64,000 bases of DNA from Desulfobacterales bacterium (GTDB lineage Bacteria; Desulfobacterota; Desulfobacteria; Desulfobacterales; JAEINQ01): NCBI GenBank assembly GCA_016342285.1, contig JAEINQ010000003.1, positions 62,001 through 126,000 of the forward strand, given 5' to 3'. Both the position numbers and the translations under genes were made by a program. The notes beneath the pieces are model-generated. The model was not told the origin of the DNA and searched no databases. It saw nothing but the letters and a program-made list of their open reading frames with translations. This document shows, piece by piece, positions 4,507 to 61,262 of the stretch (positions are counted from its first letter, which is position 1; the number at the start of each line of letters is the position of its first letter).

Positions 4507-4600
4507 CGAAGGGCTTAAAAAAAGCCAATATAAACTAGTTTCCATTACGTGTACACAGATTTTACCCGTTTGGCAATCTTTTAGTTGGTTTCCGCCCGTG

Positions 4601-5019
4601 GTAAAGAATCCTGGCCCAGAGGACCAGGCTTTGGCTTGCCCCTATAAGGGGCTGCGATACTGCGCTTCCGGTTCGAAATGCCTAAATTTGACAGTCCCGT
4701 AAAAAGCCGAAAACCAACTTTTTCCGTCATTCCCGCGCAGGCGGGAATCCAGTCATTTCAAATGGTTCTGGATGCCTGCCTTCGCAGGCATGACGAGATT
4801 TGGGACTTTTTACGCTTTCATCAAATTTAAGGAATTCTGCCATATCTTAGCTTAAAAAGCCGGAGCGAAGCGACGCCTCAACTCTTGTCAGCCTTTTCTT
4901 TTGGCGAATTAGGCATTTCAAACTTTAGTGCATTTTAGGCATTAGCCAACAATTGAAATGGCATAGCCAATGGACTCTGGTCATGCCCTGAAGGCATGGA
5001 ATTCTATGACGAATTAAAC
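4601..5019 (+). repeat. Family-1 BIME-like intergenic repeat, copy A (interrupted by an inserted element)
   Basis: GTAAAGAATCCTGGCCCAGAGGACCAGG left hairpin; GCATAGCCAATGGACTCTGGTCATGCCCTGAAGGCATGG right hairpin; internal TGCCTAAA / TTTAGGCA stem. Confidence 0.8.
4690..4822 (+). mobile_element. MITE-like element inserted in repeat copy A, flanked by AAATTT direct repeats
   Basis: GACAGTCCCGTAAAAAG...CTTTTTACGCTTTCATC ends; AAATTT at 4684-4689 and 4823-4828; core of GTCATTCCCGCG/GGCGGGAATCCAG-type palindromes. Confidence 0.7.
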
Positions 5020-5177
5020 AAACCTTTCGTGGATGGATACCCGTCAGGGGATGGGTGAACGCCGGTTTCCCGGGTTTGACCCATTCACCTGTTGCACCAT
5101 CGCGCGCCGCCCCCGAATCCATGCACCCGGACGGAAAACGGCATTGAATTTGCCGGTTTCGGTGGTATAAAACATTC

Positions 5178-12245: not shown

Positions 12246-12341
12246 GTTAACCTCGATGATGATTTGGAGAGGATTTCTGTTGCTATATACATTACAACAT
12301 CAACGTCGTCAACAACGATGACCGCGCAAAAAATCCCAAAT

Positions 12342-12520
12342 CCCTATCTTAGCTTAAAAAAACGGAGCGAAGCGACTCCGCAACTCTTGTCCGCCTTTTC
12401 TTTTGGCGGATTAGGCATTTCACACTTTAGTGCATTTTAGGCACTGGCCGACGAATGAAACGGCATAGCCAATGGACTCTGACCACGCCCAAAGGACGTG
12501 GATTTCTACTTCGAATTGAA
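12342..12520 (+). repeat. Family-1 repeat, copy B (right two-thirds)
   Basis: TATCTTAGCTTAAAA...GGAGCGAAGCGACTCC...TTTAGTGCATTTTAGGCAC...GGCATAGCCAATGGACTCTGACCACGCCCAAAGGACGTGG. Confidence 0.75.
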
Positions 12521-12525
12521 ATACC

Positions 12526-14233: not shown

Positions 14234-16564
14234 ATGGGGTTGGAATCGCTGAAATATATTTCCCGCATGCCGCATTTTTCACTTCTCCCGAAAAACGAAC
14301 TCGATCGCATCGCCGAATCGGCAAAAGTCGTCAAACATCCGGCCGGCACATTGTACGCCAGGCAGGGAAAATCGAAAATCAACAGCATCTATATCCTTTC
14401 CAAGGGGTCCCTGACCATTTTCTCCGAAAAAGAAGGGAAAAAGTCGGTTTCAGGCTATATCAAACCCGGAGAAGTCTTTGGCGGCATCAGCATCCTTCTC
14501 AATGGCGGCATTTCCCTGCGCAGTGTCGAAGTGGACACCGACTGTTCCGGCTACACCATCAGCCGGGTAATTTTCCTGGACCTGTGCCACCGCTATAGCG
14601 ATTTTTTTGAATATTTTCTGGAAAATTTCAGTAAGAATATTATCGATCCGTCCCTGAATTCATTGATCGAAACCAGTCAGGCCCGCCACTTTCTTTCCCA
14701 TGTCGAACCGTTTTCGTTCCTGCCGGAAGATGCGCTCAATCAGGTCGCCTCAAAACTGACCGCAGTGCAGTATCCCAAGCGGACGGTTCTCTTCGTACAG
14801 GGGGCCACACGGATCGGCTACCTGTACATTCTTCAAAAGGGTTCGGCCGAGCGTTTCTTCGAGCAGGACGGGAAACGGACCATGCACGAACTGCTGGGTG
14901 AAGGTGATATTTACGGTGGCATCTCCATGCTTGTCAACGACGGAATATCGGTCCGATCGGTAAAGCTTCTCGAACCCACATGCTTTTATCTGCTGCCAAA
15001 AAAATGCTTCCTGGACATCTGCGGGCAGTATGAATCGGTCACCGAATTTTTCACCGACACCTTCGGAAAACGGATGCTGGAAAAGTCTTACGCTTCTGTC
15101 ATCTCCAAAACAATGGTTCCGCGAATCGAAGGGCTTCAGTTCTTCAACCAGCATGTGGCCAGTATCTACAACACCCAGCCGGTGTTCGGCACCACGTCCA
15201 TGAGCATTCGGGAAGCGGCCGAAACCATGGCCGGCAAGAACATCAGCTCTCTCTTTCTCCGGTCGGAAGAGGACCCATGCGCCGGTGTCGTGACCGAACG
15301 CGACCTGGCCCACCAGGTCATTGCCAAAGACTTCGATATCAACCGGCCGGTCTCTGACATTATGAAATCACCGGTACGTACCATTTCTGAATTTTCATTG
15401 ATTTTCGAGGCCCTGATGGTCATGCTGGAAAACAACATCCGCCATCTGGCCGTGACCGATGTGGACGATCATGTGGTCGGCATCCTGACCAACCGGGATC
15501 TGCTTTCCTCCCAGGGGCAGTCGCCGCTGTTTCTGATCCGCAGGATCTCCGAGGCCGCAACCATCAAGGAAGTGATCGAAAGCCACAACCAGTTGCCCCA
15601 GTTGATTCTCAATTTGATATCCGGCGGCGCCAAGGCGAACAACGTGACCCAGTTCATCACCACGGTCTCTGATGGCATTCTCGAAAAAATCATGGGGTTC
15701 GCCATCGATCGCCTGGGCCCGCCGCCCGTCAGATTCGTATTTATGATCCTCGGCAGCGAAGGCCGCAGCGAACAGACGCTGAAAACCGACCAGGACAATG
15801 CCATCATTTTCGAGGATGTCCCGGAAAAAGACGAAGCCCGCGTCCGGCAATATTTTCTTAAATTTGGAGAGCTCGCCTGCGACCTCCTCAACCAGGCCGG
15901 TTACGATTTATGCACCGGCGGCGTCATGGCCAAAAACCCCCAATGGTGCCAGCCCCTATCCACCTGGAAATCTTATTTTTCCAACTGGATTCGCGCCGCC
16001 GAAGCCGAGGATCTGCTGCAGGCCAGCATTTTCTTTGATTTTCGCTGCGGCTATGGTGAATTGGAACTCATTGATGCCCTGCGCCAGCACCTGTTCGACG
16101 CCTTGAAAGGGTGGGCTGGCTTTTTCCGCCATTTGACCGAAAATGCGCTGTTCTTCAAGCCGCCCATCGGTTTCTTCAGAAATTTCGTAGTGGAATCCAA
16201 GGGGGAACACCGGGATGAGTTCGATATCAAGTCAGCCATGACCCCCATTGTCGATTTTGCCCGCATCTATGCCCTGCGCAACAAGGCAGAAGAAACCAAC
16301 ACCCTGGAACGCCTCGCCTACCTGCGCCGCAAGGAAGTACTGACCCAGAAAGAATACGAAGAGCTGGAAAAAGCATACGGTTTTTTGCTGCAACTTCGCT
16401 TCGTTCGCCAGATCACGGCAATCGTCGATGAAAAGTCCAAACCCGACAACTACATCAATCCCAAAGACCTGACCCGGATCGAGCAGAAAATGCTCAAGGA
16501 AATATTTCTCCGGGTGGCCACCTTCCAGAGAAAACTGGAGGTGGAGTTTATTGGGGTGATATAG
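14234..16564 (+). CDS. Two cyclic-nucleotide-binding-like domains + CBS pair + DUF294 nucleotidyltransferase-like protein
   Basis: Two cNMP-type repeats (VFGGISILLNGGISLRS, IYGGISMLVNDGISVRS), CBS motifs (GVVTERDLAHQV, GILTNRDLL), MILGSEGRSEQTLKTDQDNAIIF. Confidence 0.9.
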   Translation: MGLESLKYISRMPHFSLLPKNELDRIAESAKVVKHPAGTLYARQGKSKINSIYILSKGSLTIFSEKEGKKSVSGYIKPGEVFGGISILLNGGISLRSVEVDTDCSGYTISRVIFLDLCHRYSDFFEYFLENFSKNIIDPSLNSLIETSQARHFLSHVEPFSFLPEDALNQVASKLTAVQYPKRTVLFVQGATRIGYLYILQKGSAERFFEQDGKRTMHELLGEGDIYGGISMLVNDGISVRSVKLLEPTCFYLLPKKCFLDICGQYESVTEFFTDTFGKRMLEKSYASVISKTMVPRIEGLQFFNQHVASIYNTQPVFGTTSMSIREAAETMAGKNISSLFLRSEEDPCAGVVTERDLAHQVIAKDFDINRPVSDIMKSPVRTISEFSLIFEALMVMLENNIRHLAVTDVDDHVVGILTNRDLLSSQGQSPLFLIRRISEAATIKEVIESHNQLPQLILNLISGGAKANNVTQFITTVSDGILEKIMGFAIDRLGPPPVRFVFMILGSEGRSEQTLKTDQDNAIIFEDVPEKDEARVRQYFLKFGELACDLLNQAGYDLCTGGVMAKNPQWCQPLSTWKSYFSNWIRAAEAEDLLQASIFFDFRCGYGELELIDALRQHLFDALKGWAGFFRHLTENALFFKPPIGFFRNFVVESKGEHRDEFDIKSAMTPIVDFARIYALRNKAEETNTLERLAYLRRKEVLTQKEYEELEKAYGFLLQLRFVRQITAIVDEKSKPDNYINPKDLTRIEQKMLKEIFLRVATFQRKLEVEFIGVI

Positions 16565-16570
16565 TCGGCA

Positions 16571-16832
16571 GTAAAGAATCCACGCCAGAGGACGTGGCCT
16601 TGGATTGCCCCTAAAAGGGGCTACTGCCGGGTGTTTGAAGTTCGAAGTGCCTAAAATGCCTAAAATTAAGGAATTCTGCCATATCTTAGCTGAAAAAAGC
16701 CGGAGCGAAGCGACTCCTCAACTTTAGGCATTTTAAACTTTAGCGCATTTTGGCACTTACCAGCCATCTTAGCGGCATAGCCAAACGGACTCTGATCACA
16801 CCACAGAACGTGGATTGCTATTTCAAATTGAA
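16571..16832 (+). repeat. Family-1 repeat, copy C (near full length)
   Basis: GTAAAGAATCCACGCCAGAGGACGTGG left hairpin, AAGTGCCTAAAATGCCTAAAATTAAGGAATTC, GGCATAGCCAAACGGACTCTGATCACACC right end. Confidence 0.8.
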
Positions 16833-16851
16833 AATCGAAAAGGAGAGCGTC

Positions 16852-18242: not shown

Positions 18243-18352
18243 GATGCCTTCATTCACCACGAAGCACACAAAGCTGAAATCATTATATATTATTATATCC
18301 CTTCGTGCTCTTCGTGTCCTTCGTGGTAAAAAAATGGAGTTTCTACGGGACC
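18243..18352. repeat. CACGAAG-arm hairpin within a degraded GTAAAAAG-type element
   Basis: ACCACGAAGCACACAAAGCTGAAATCATTATATATTAT...CTTCGTGCTCTTCGTGTCCTTCGTGGT, followed by GGAGTTTCTACGGGACCTCT. Confidence 0.65.
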
Positions 18353-20439: not shown

Positions 20440-20679
20440 AATGCTCAATATCCAATTCTCAATGTTCAATGTTCAAGGCGGCATTCCGCCTTTTTATCTT
20501 TTTATACACAGCGTTTTAAGTCTTTGCGATATCAACGCTTAATCGCTTGATTCTCAATCGGATTTGTAGCCTATCAGCTCGACGCTGTGTATGTATGGGC
20601 AAGGATTAATGCCGTTCTGTATAAAAGTGACGGAGCGTAGCGATTCCTCACTTGAGCATTGAACATTGAGAATTGGGTT
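20440..20679. repeat. Nested inverted-repeat element with 7-bp-periodic (CAATnnn) arms
   Basis: TGCTCAATATCCAATTCTCAATGTTCAATGTTCAA / TTGAGCATTGAACATTGAGAATTGGG; inner ATACACAGCGT (20504-20514) / ACGCTGTGTAT (20582-20592). Confidence 0.75.
20475..20503 (+). terminator. Rho-independent terminator-like hairpin downstream of recQ
   Basis: AAGGCGGCATTCCGCCTTTTTATCTTTTT. Confidence 0.7.
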
Positions 20680-29859: not shown

Positions 29860-29891
29860 GGTACCATCCTTTGATGAACGCATAAAAAAAA

Positions 29892-30166
29892 TAGTAAAAA
29901 ATCCTGGCCAAGAGGGCCAGGCTTTGGTTTGCCCCTTGAAGGGGCTGTCCTGTATGTTTTAAGTTTGAAGTGCCTAAAATGCCTAAAGTGCCTAAAATTA
30001 AGGAATTCTGCCATATCTTAGCTTAAAAAGGGCCAGAGCGAAGCGACTCCACAATTTTAGGCATTTCAAACTTTAGCGCATTTTAGGCATTTGCCGGCGA
30101 TTCTATCGGCATAGCCAATCGACTCTGACCATACCCTGAGGGCATGGATTTCTATGACGAATTAAA
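29892..30166 (+). repeat. Family-1 repeat, copy D (near full length)
   Basis: AGTAAAAAATCCTGGCCAAGAGGGCCAGG; GTGCCTAAAATGCCTAAAGTGCCTAAAATTAAGGAATTC; GGCATAGCCAATCGACTCTGACCATACCCTGAGGGCATGGATTTCTATGACGAATTAAA. Confidence 0.85.
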
Positions 30167-30740
30167 CCAGGTACAAAGCACACAAAGAAAAAAGTTCTTT
30201 TCAAGATGTTCGCTTTGGGCCCTTTGTGTCGGAAAATTTTGGCTTGTACGTGGCCGTCATCATTTTAGTGCATACGAAAACGCTTACCACATTTCGTGGC
30301 CCATGCAAAGCCATGGCCGATACAGGAAATCGTTGCCGAGCCTCCCGTCAGGGGGGGGGGTAGTGGTCCAGGACAGCGGAAAAGGAAAAAACGCCGGCGA
30401 ATTGATGATAAAAACCTTGACTTTCACATCACCGGCGTTAGTATATACGCCTTGCCGAAATTTTGGGCTAAAGGACCGACCCGAATCTGCCGATAGAATG
30501 ATTGTCAGGTCTCACCATCTGCCCCCTTAATGCCTGTAATCAACACCGTACCAGGCTGTGATAGGCAAGTCGCGAATACCGCGTACGGGCAGATGTGCAT
30601 GTAAACAATCCGGTAACATCCCCATGTGAGCCGATCCCCGCCCCGGGGTCGGTGAAATGCACGTTCGATAAATTGAAAACCCAAATAAACAGCGCGGCTC
30701 TGCGCCGCAGGCAACATAAAGAACCCAAACGGAGAAACCC

Positions 30741-38242: not shown

Positions 38243-38496
38243 GGTTGTGCACCCCCCTGTCGAATATTCCTCGAAAGCCGGTAGCCGCAAAATGACCGGG
38301 ATCGATCCGCGACACAGACCGCGTTACTTATCGCTGCTTCCTTCCGGATCTGACGAGGTTCGTAACCGTCTGTTGCGCGGCGACCGGTCCATGCAACCAA
38401 CCGGCGGGTGAGGTCCACCCTTCAGGGGGGGATTCAGCCCCGCATGAAGCGGATTTCGGGTACAGGGCACCGCTAGCTCCCCGCTTAGCACAACCG
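38243..38496 (-). ncRNA. ffs: Signal recognition particle RNA (large bacterial type)
   Basis: Minus strand contains GTGCTAAGCGGGGAGCTAGCGGTGCCCTGTACCCGAAATCCGCTTCATGCGGGG and AACCTCGTCAGATCCGGAAGGAAGCAGCGATAAGTAA; terminal GGTTGTGC/GCACAACC pairing. Confidence 0.93.
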
Positions 38497-51958: not shown

Positions 51959-52082
51959 GCCGGGCCGCCCCGGGGAAATAACGAAAATCCGTAACCTTTG
52001 AGGCCCAAACGGCTCTGCATGGGTTCGGACCATGTTGTTCCCGTTTGGCGGTTCGTTCGTTTCCGCTCGCGAATCCGTTTTT

Positions 52083-52348
52083 GTAAAGAATCCTGGGCCA
52101 GAGGACGCTGATTTGGTTTGCCCTTTGGAGGGGCTGTCCTTTGATGCTTGAAATTTGAAGTGCCTAAAATGCCTAAAATTAAGGAATTCTGCCATATCTT
52201 AGTTTAAAAAGAACCGAAGCGAAGCGACTCCACAATTTTAGGCATTTCAAACTTTAGCTCATTTTAGGCATTTGCCGGCGATTATAGCGGCATAGCCAAT
52301 TGACTCTGACCATGCCCTGAGGGCATGGATTTCAATGACGAATTAAAA
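52083..52348 (+). repeat. Family-1 repeat, copy E (near full length)
   Basis: TGTAAAGAATCCTGGGCCAGAGGACGCTG; TGCCTAAAATGCCTAAAATTAAGGAATTCTGCCATATCTTAG; GGCATAGCCAATTGACTCTGACCATGCCCTGAGGGCATGG. Confidence 0.85.
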
Positions 52349-52372
52349 ACCGACACCGGAGCCATCAAGACC

Positions 52373-58400: not shown

Positions 58401-60305
58401 ATGACCAACGCGTACGATAAGGCTTTTGCCCAATCCATCAACGATCCGGACGGGTTCTGGACCGGGCCGGCTGAGGACTGCCACTGGTACAAGAAATGGG
58501 ACAAGGTGCTCGACGACAGCAATAAGCCGTTTTACCGTTGGTTTACAGGCGGGGAAGTGAACACCTGCTATAACGCCCTGGACTATCATATCGAAAACGG
58601 CCGGGGCGGTCAGCACGCACTGATCTACGACTCCCCGGTAACCAACACCATCCGAAAATACACCTATGTCCAGCTCCGCGACGAAGTGGCGCGATTTGCC
58701 GGGGTGCTGTTCAACCAGGGGGTGGCCAAGGGGGACCGGGTCATCATCTACATGCCCATGATCGCCGAGGCGGCCATCGCCATGCTGGCCTGCGCTCGGA
58801 TCGGCGCGGTCCACTCGGTGGTCTTCGGCGGGTTTGCCGCCAAAGAGCTGGCCACACGAATCGACGATGCCAAGCCCAAGGTCATCGTGTCGGCCTCCTG
58901 CGGCATCGAGGTCAAACGGGTCATCGCCTACAAGCCCCTGCTGGACAAGGCCATTGATTTTGCCGAGTTCAAACCGGAAAAATGCGTGATCTTCCAGCGC
59001 CCCATGGAAGAGGCGTCCATGGTGGCGGGACGGGACGTGGACTGGATGGAGGCCATGGAATCGGCCCAGCCCCAGGACTGCGTACCGGTGGCAGCCACCG
59101 ACCCGCTCTATATTCTTTACACCTCGGGCACCACGGGCGAGCCCAAGGGGGTGGTCAGAGACAACGGCGGGCACATGGTGGCCCTCAAGTGGTCCATGAA
59201 GGCGGTTTACAACGTCGATGCCGGGGATGTCTACTGGGCCGCCTCGGACGTGGGCTGGGTGGTGGGCCACAGCTATATCGTCTACGCTCCCCTTCTGCAG
59301 GGTTGCACCACGATCCTGTTCGAAGGCAAACCGGTAGGGACCCCCGATGCCGGCGTCTTCTGGCGGGTGATCAGTGAACACAAGGTCAAATGCATGTTCA
59401 CCGCGCCCACAGCCTTTCGGGCCATCAAACGCGAGGACCCCAGGGCGGAGTTGATGAAGAACTACGACCTGTCCTGCTTTAAAACGCTTTTTCTGGCCGG
59501 AGAACGGCTGGATCCGGACACCCTGCACTGGGCGGAAAACTGTCTGAAAATACCTGTGATCGACCACTGGTGGCAGACCGAGACCGGCTGGGCCATCTGT
59601 GCCAACTGCATGGGGATCCACGACTTCCCGGTCAAAATGGGCTCGCCCACCAAACCGGCCCCGGGGTGGAACGTCCAGGTGGTGGATCCGGACTGCAATG
59701 TCGTCAAGACGGGCGAAATCGGTGCCCTGGTGGTCAAACTGCCCCTGCCCCCCGGGACCCTGCCGAGCCTGTGGCAGAACGACAAGCGCTACGTAGAATC
59801 CTATCTCGAGGAATTTCCCGGCTACTACAAAACCGCCGATGCCGGCTACATCGACGAGGAAGGCTATGTCTACGTCATGAGCCGCACCGACGACATCATC
59901 AACGTGGCCGGTCACCGGCTCTCTACCGGAGCCATGGAGGAGGTGCTGGCCGATCACCCGGAGGTGGCCGAATGCGCCGTGCTCGGCGTCGAGGATCAAC
60001 TCAAGGGGCAGGTGCCCGTGGGTTTTCTGGTCTTAAACGCCGGGGTCGATCGGCCCCATGAAGACATCGTCAAGGAGGTGATCGCCATGGTCCGCGACCG
60101 CATCGGACCGGTGGCCGCCTTTAAGACCGCCACGGTGGTCAAACGGCTGCCCAAGACCCGTTCGGGCAAGATCCTGCGGGGCACCATTCAAAAGATCGCC
60201 GACAACCAGCAATACAAAGTGCCGGCCACCATCGACGATCCGACCATCCTTGTGGAAATGGAAGAGGCCCTGATCGGCATCGGGTATGCCAAGGCCAGAA
60301 AATAA
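58401..60305 (+). CDS. Propionyl/acetyl-CoA synthetase-type AMP-forming ligase (PrpE-like)
   Basis: YILYTSGTTGEPKGVVRDNGGHMVALKWSM; DHWWQTETGW; SRTDDIINVAGHRLSTG. Confidence 0.93.
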   Translation: MTNAYDKAFAQSINDPDGFWTGPAEDCHWYKKWDKVLDDSNKPFYRWFTGGEVNTCYNALDYHIENGRGGQHALIYDSPVTNTIRKYTYVQLRDEVARFAGVLFNQGVAKGDRVIIYMPMIAEAAIAMLACARIGAVHSVVFGGFAAKELATRIDDAKPKVIVSASCGIEVKRVIAYKPLLDKAIDFAEFKPEKCVIFQRPMEEASMVAGRDVDWMEAMESAQPQDCVPVAATDPLYILYTSGTTGEPKGVVRDNGGHMVALKWSMKAVYNVDAGDVYWAASDVGWVVGHSYIVYAPLLQGCTTILFEGKPVGTPDAGVFWRVISEHKVKCMFTAPTAFRAIKREDPRAELMKNYDLSCFKTLFLAGERLDPDTLHWAENCLKIPVIDHWWQTETGWAICANCMGIHDFPVKMGSPTKPAPGWNVQVVDPDCNVVKTGEIGALVVKLPLPPGTLPSLWQNDKRYVESYLEEFPGYYKTADAGYIDEEGYVYVMSRTDDIINVAGHRLSTGAMEEVLADHPEVAECAVLGVEDQLKGQVPVGFLVLNAGVDRPHEDIVKEVIAMVRDRIGPVAAFKTATVVKRLPKTRSGKILRGTIQKIADNQQYKVPATIDDPTILVEMEEALIGIGYAKARK

Positions 60306-60467: not shown

Positions 60468-60582
60468 TGCCTATTGCGTTTTGCCGGTTGGCGGGGGTAT
60501 CCACACACAGGTGGGTGCAATCGAGGTGTCCATGGCAAGGGGCTGGGATACTGCCCCAGATAAGTGTGGAGTGACTAAAGTT

Positions 60583-60736
60583 GATGCACTCGTAAAAAGT
60601 CAGCAATATGCCCACTTTTTTGATTAACCACGAAGAGCACGAAGTACACGAAGCTGAAATCATTATATATTATTTAACAACCCTTCGTGATCTTCGTGTC
60701 CTTCGTGGTAAAAATTGGACTTTTTACGGGACTGTC
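60583..60736 (-). mobile_element. MITE-like element flanked by AAAGTT direct repeats, carrying a CACGAAG-arm hairpin
   Basis: GATGCACTCGTAAAAAGTC...GACTTTTTACGGGACTGTC ends; AAAGTT at 60577-60582 and 60737-60742. Confidence 0.75.
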
Positions 60737-60911
60737 AAAGTTGAGGAGTCGCTACGCCCCCCATTTTTTTATAATGGTTGGCAGAGCGCAGCGATTCCAC
60801 ACTTGAGCATTGGACATTGGAAATTCACGGAAGCCGTTCTCGCCGGCACGATAGAACCGCTTCCGGTCCACCACTTGAAGGGGTGGTTGAATGCCAGGAT
60901 TGAAGCAGGCC

Positions 60912-61262
60912 CTACCCGATGGTGTTTTTGACGATACCGATCAGCTTTTCCGGATCAAAGGGTTTCTTGACAAATGCCACGGCCCCGAGAATGGCGTGGT
61001 CGCCGTCGATGCCGCTGACCACAATGACCGGGATATCCCGCAGTGTCTTGTCCTGCCGGAGCTTGCGATAGAATCGCGGCCCCCATTCTCTGGGCATCTG
61101 CAGATCCAGGGTGATCAGATCCGGCTTTTCCTTGCGGACCACTTCAAGCCCCTCGGTGGTGCTGCTGGCGCTGCATGTCTCGTATCCATTGTCGCTGAAG
61201 ACCGCCTTTAAGTATTTGACGATCACCGGGTCGTCGTCGATGACAAGTATTTTCTTCGGCAT
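60912..61262 (-). CDS. Response regulator receiver-domain protein
   Basis: KKILVIDDDPVIVKYLKAVF; LITLDLQMP; FVKKPFD. Confidence 0.95.
   Translation of the reverse strand: MPKKILVIDDDPVIVKYLKAVFSDNGYETCSASSTTEGLEVVRKEKPDLITLDLQMPREWGPRFYRKLRQDKTLRDIPVIVVSGIDGDHAILGAVAFVKKPFDPEKLIGIVKNTIG

Follow-up and report, generated by a model that had tools for sequence, protein, structure and literature searches.

The 64,000-nucleotide stretch of a Desulfobacterales contig that we analysed (the window) contains, at 60577-60742, a short element between two copies of AAAGTT, and a second element around position 4690 has the same kinds of ends but a different core. This raises the question of what the mobile unit is, the ends or the hairpin between them, and of what guides its insertion, as both elements interrupt copies of the same dispersed repeat. 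The reading that we consider very probable, judging from sequence, is that of a shell of the MITE type, a non-autonomous transposon that a putative transposase moves in trans and in which the unit is bounded by its ends and the core is exchangeable.

The insertion at 60577-60742 and its AAAGTT flanks could be read from the sequence exactly as the original prediction had described them (Table 1). The arms of the core hairpin are 83% complementary, and folding of the region gave z = -6.7. ORFs of 80 aa or more touch the element only as frames that run through its borders; on one side its neighbour is a 649-aa ORF on the plus strand that ends at 60305, and on the other side lies a minus-strand ORF (60912-61262, 116 aa) that is response-regulator-like as judged by eye. 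Directly beside the insertion, a different dispersed repeat (CACTTGAGCATTGGACATTGGAAATTCACGG...) occupies 60768-60900; part of this flank matches 20633-20674, and similar text stands beside or within elements at loci L031 and L063. The element at 4690-4822 has GACAGTCCCGTAAAAAG as its left and GATGAAAGCGTAAAAAG as its right end, so that the two elements lie in opposite orientation. The claim that they are one type of mobile element with a swapped core was borne out. Over the whole window, GTAAAAAG and CTTTTTAC face each other at a distance of up to 400 bp only in these two elements. Apart from the bacterial large signal recognition particle RNA at 38245-38493 on the minus strand (RF01854, 142 bits), an Rfam search of the window returned nothing.

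Table 1. Positions of the two elements, their parts and related repeat copies in the window.
Feature	Position	Strand	Basis or detail
Whole element, CACGAAG core; starts GATGCACTCGTAAAAAGTC, ends GACTTTTTACGGGACTGTC	60583-60736, 154 bp		direct reading of sequence
Target-site duplication AAAGTT, left	60577..60582	+	sequence; same letters as 60737-60742; target-site duplication statistics
Terminal repeat, left, GATGCACTCGTAAAAAGTC, GATG-type end	60583..60601	+	sequence; own-genome copies have same end
Core hairpin	60624..60712	.	arms 60624-60653 and 60683-60712; CACGAAG heptads, 9-bp period
Terminal repeat, right, GACAGTCCCGTAAAAAGTC, GACAG-type end	60718..60736	-	sequence
Target-site duplication AAAGTT, right	60737..60742	+	sequence
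Sister element, CATTCCCGC/CATGCCTGC palindrome core	4690..4822, 133 bp	.	sequence and genome matches
Sister element including AAATTT target-site duplications	4684..4828	.	duplications 4684-4689 and 4823-4828
Third CACGAAG-core copy, decayed, without intact ends	18258..18351	+	89% match in genome search (G000:C159:80258-80351); sequence
Family-1 copy, uninterrupted, paralogous empty site	29891..30170	+	sequence comparison
Further family-1 copies	12336-12525, 16561-16833, 52071-52350
Interrupted family-1 copy	4591-5030

Within the element's own genome (a 6.5-Mb assembly of 166 contigs), similarity searches placed the CACGAAG-core element at no fewer than 40 separate matching places, and the CATTCCCGC-core element, with the 4690 copy as query, likewise at at least 40. 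The borders of these copies are constant, in most cases with GATG-N4-CGTAAAAAGTC at one end and GACAGNCCCGTAAAAAGTC at the opposite end, and direct 6-bp repeats lie outside them (AAAGTT, AACTTT, AATTTT, AAAATT, AATATT, AATCTT, AAGGTT, AAGCTT, ATTCTT and others). Elements with a third type of core, CACAAAG, have GACAGACCCGTAAAAAGTC or GACAGGCCCGTAAAAAGTC as their ends, and the right end of the 60583 element, GACAGTCCCGTAAAAAGTC, is common to the 4690 element and to three core types of this genome. The terminal repeats of the family are imperfect and 19 bp long, with GAYGNNCTCGTAAAAAGTC as the commonest form; both carry GA-N6-CGTAAAAAGTC, inverted relative to each other. The family thus shows the sequence features by which MITEs are recognised, namely many dispersed copies, terminal inverted repeats, a target duplication of constant length (6 bp) and a short non-coding body of less than 500 bp without a transposase gene, most verified elements measuring 99-208 bp among end pairs lying 60-600 bp apart.

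The status of the flanking repeats was assessed on all distinct candidate end pairs spaced by 60-600 bp, for which the 6 bp just outside the ends were compared. Identical repeats were present at 20/41 pairs in the own genome and at 98/204 pairs in other genomes (118/245 in total, Desulfobacterota), as opposed to none when the same comparison was moved outward by 6, 12 or 20 bp. The 6-bp direct repeats are therefore real target-site duplications and, given the many matching places in the genome, the observation at 60577 is not due to chance. Combined with their reverse complements, the 98 sites of the other genomes yielded the target consensus YYAANNTTRR, with A at 97% and 88% of the first and second duplicated positions, respectively. 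While the predicted duplication proved real, its motif is AANNTT and thus broader than the AAAnTT that had been proposed. As the element starts with GA and ends with TC, each insertion converts both AANNTT copies into new YYAANNTTRR sites, and this target rule, combined with the recreated sites, accounts for chains of elements. Twelve back-to-back pairs are spaced by exactly 6 bp, whereas no other distance between -5 and 60 bp was seen more than twice. The element thus also inserts again at the site that it has duplicated.

Both window insertions had been assigned to one host repeat, and this assignment was correct. The repeat, family 1, is dispersed, about 280 bp long, built around a long TGCCTAAAATT/AATTTTAGGCA stem, and takes up 6.1 kb (about 1.3%) of a 464-kb sample of the genome. 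When joined, the flanks at 60577 align with the reverse complement of its right arm (84% over 38 bp, copy at 16.7 kb) and those at 4690 with its left arm, meaning that the insertions occupy mirror positions in opposite arms. It is tempting to conclude, as the original prediction did, that the machinery recognises the family-1 stem and always inserts at the same position within this stem. Indeed, 3 of the 27 verified copies other than the two in the window also lie in family-1 arms, and the arms hold 5/29 verified own-genome insertions versus 24/407 noncoding AANNTT sites (one-sided p = 0.035), a weak excess in a count that includes the two window copies from which the idea arose; for family 1 as a whole, the shares were 6/29 and 61/407 (one-sided p = 0.28). 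This excess in the arms disappeared once the expectation was weighted by target sequence. A model of the target that was trained on other genomes and run over all noncoding sample DNA (20 stretches of 20 kb as background) led us to expect 17% of the insertions in the arms, and 17% were observed (p = 0.57), both percentages being approximate, given a crude ORF mask for coding sequence and a set of own-genome insertions made up of those first returned by similarity or pattern searches. Because the arms are good YYAANNTTRR sites (CTAAAATTAA, TCAACTTTAG), the insertions in them are explained by the target sequence, and no more than a sequence preference is needed for family-1 hairpins to be hit repeatedly. 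Moreover, 24/29 verified copies lie outside the arms, what the insertions in other genomes have in common is YYAANNTTRR, and only 13 perfect YYAANNTTRR sites exist in the window, four of them duplications that flank the two elements, and four more empty family-1 arms. We therefore regard hairpin-targeted insertion as highly improbable.

We next consider the cores. The 117 cores of verified elements fell into 15 groups between which similarity was undetectable, so the same ends enclose 15 unrelated kinds of core; CACGAAG hairpins, in turn, also occur without shell ends in other genomes, and cores and ends are thus separable, as had been anticipated. Element lengths cluster at 101, 133 and 151 bp, the 133-bp class being found in two unrelated core groups. 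Not all of the cores form strong hairpins; z was below -3 in 7 of the 15 group representatives. We take many of the cores to resemble common bacterial palindromes (ATTCCC...GGGAAT, CATTGCGAG..., CACNAAG heptads), and the first two types presumably resemble Rickettsia palindromic elements and Neisseria dRS3 palindromes, which to our knowledge have been described without such a shell. Separately, we noted clustered CACGAAG-type heptads in genome G012 (31 matches), where locus L092 shows them without a shell.

This resemblance, and the free-standing CACGAAG hairpins, could indicate that the cores themselves are the mobile units, REP-like and moved by a hairpin-recognising enzyme, and that the shared ends are merely their common landing site. 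In genome G213, 177-bp copies differ from 151-bp copies by a 26-bp mini-hairpin insert, which would also fit this reading. However, the duplication and the target consensus sit outside the ends and not outside the core, total length falls into the recurrent classes given above, and neighbours in a chain are joined by their ends, 6 bp apart. Mobile cores are contradicted for the last insertion step but may explain where the cores came from; as an account of the elements, we give them very little chance. A REP/RAYT system (a mobile hairpin without target duplication) does not fit the element, whose 6-bp duplication lies outside the terminal repeats. At another locus (L215, in a different genome), a different mini-hairpin occupies the same position as the insert in G213.

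Shared ends around different cores are usually explained by separate MITE families that derive from one autonomous transposon, each having its own core and without any exchange, and the fixed orientation of each core relative to its ends would fit this account. Yet the own genome contains chimeras. An exchangeable end module, which measures ~88 bp or, with a CATTCCCGC palindrome included, about 200-225 bp, begins with a complete end and finishes with ...CTTCCTTAGAAGT in place of the ...CGTAAAAAGT of a normal end. The same ...AGT junction joins it directly to the inner part of CACGAAG elements (on either side), of a CATTCCCGC element, of CACAAAG elements and of one further type. At locus L021, a CATTCCCGC-type left half is fused to a CACGAAG right half, and a lineage-specific end, GACAGNCCC, is common to three core types. 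Separate families without exchange are therefore unlikely in our view, and the modular core exchange that had been suggested from the two window copies is supported. Since the junction shares only AGTC, exchange by short-homology recombination or template switching would be the simplest reading. Extended end modules with the CTTCCTTAGAAGT finish were seen at loci L012, L017, L028, L031, L070, L088, L090, L379 and L383-L386, and the last bases of the module (TTAGAAGTC) look like a worn-down GTAAAAAGTC.

Returning to the shell that is moved by its ends, the following course of events can be proposed. A DDE-type transposase supplied in trans, for which the 6-bp duplication and the architecture argue in the light of established IS biology, would recognise the ends only and insert them through a staggered 6-bp cut. 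The cores would be passengers, mostly common bacterial palindromes, or might aid the pairing of the ends. Recombination at the AGTC shared by the ends would create new end-core combinations, and the YYAANNTTRR sites recreated on either side would let later copies insert alongside, forming chains.

The transposase was sought in several ways. In the DNA examined, 642 ends were found with at most one mismatch, of which 545 pair into short elements and 97 are unpaired; the ORFs inside the latter read as ordinary genes, none being recognisable as a transposase by eye. Shell ends were absent from the DDE_Tnp_1 (PF01609) loci of six genomes and from ISNCY_1 (NF033593) loci, where the ends, if clear, were of other kinds (TAGTGTCTGAACGAAAAC, TAGTATCTGC...), and no such end pair surrounded the 30 IS1634 (NF033559) loci examined. 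Finished and element-dense genomes, searched for pairs of ends spaced as in an IS, yielded no autonomous transposon with these ends. One candidate pair, 1432 bp apart, turned out to be two short elements flanking a regulator-like gene (WYL type by eye). Metagenome assemblies often lose repeats longer than 1 kb, and such loss may hide the autonomous partner.

The shell is widespread. GAYGRNCTCGTAAAAAGTC, a form related to the left end at 60583, is present in 141/243 genomes of the order with up to 312 matches per genome (one match overall for the reversed-pattern control), and preceded by AANNTT it was found in 55/297 genomes sampled phylum-wide (control 0). Among the matches listed, the named genomes belong mostly to Desulfobacterota, plus a Smithella and Nitrospirota; one locus labelled Nitrospirae (L225) holds a full 132-bp element with AATCTT duplications. 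IMG/VR viral contigs gave no match to the element ends. Shell ends were also noted in metagenome bins labelled as other phyla, at L217 and L196 (Candidatus Neomarinimicrobiota) and L239 (Candidatus Cloacimonas), which may reflect real transfer or binning errors. The 151- and 177-bp elements of G213 (loci L389-L418), most of which pair one GACGGTC with one GATGAAC end, are nearly identical, pointing to recent movement and expansion.

We know of no agreed means by which common bacterial intergenic palindromes spread. Since many of them lie, throughout a phylum, between transposon ends of one kind that are flanked by a clear target duplication, a carrier has been identified for these palindrome copies. 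A broader and distinctly tentative proposal, which we hold to be possible but doubtful, is that the phylum-wide shell acts as a general carrier that takes up common bacterial palindromes of intergenic DNA as its cores and swaps them within limits of length (101/133/151 bp), served by a kind of transposase linked to no IS family so far. If true, this would explain the spread of at least some bacterial palindromes. In addition, with the target defined exactly as YYAANNTTRR and recreated at each insertion, transposition can be tested in a plasmid assay and insertions can be dated via empty sites.

In the literature examined, we did not find the shell ends printed in a mobile-element context, and searches with the palindrome strings yielded nothing on mobility. 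Bacterial MITEs are described as multi-copy, non-coding and mostly intergenic elements of <500 bp with terminal inverted repeats, a target duplication that is usually TA and often a stem-loop interior (PMC10969869, PMC2229807). The present element shares their sequence-level features but differs by its 6-bp AANNTT duplication and by a single kind of end pair that encloses at least 15 unrelated cores phylum-wide, for which an IS with matching ends was not found. Correia elements/NEMIS of Neisseria similarly have short inverted ends and short size classes set by an internal insert, although their ends carry a TA motif and they are related elements with one optional 50-bp insert rather than unrelated cores (PMC2229807). 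In terms of host, the nearest relative that has a name, likened here by description, is Chunjie of Geobacter uraniireducens (summarised in PMC10969869). This MITE from a related bacterium has direct repeats and conserved ends and varies in length (178-235 bp); it is larger and has been described from one genome. The Tn3-derived miniature elements called TIMEs (PMC4133298) come close in another respect, as they too have shared ends round different interiors and include mosaic elements; they differ in their 38-bp Tn3-type ends, 5-bp duplication and known parent family, and their mosaic interiors are genes, whereas those of the shell described here are hairpins.
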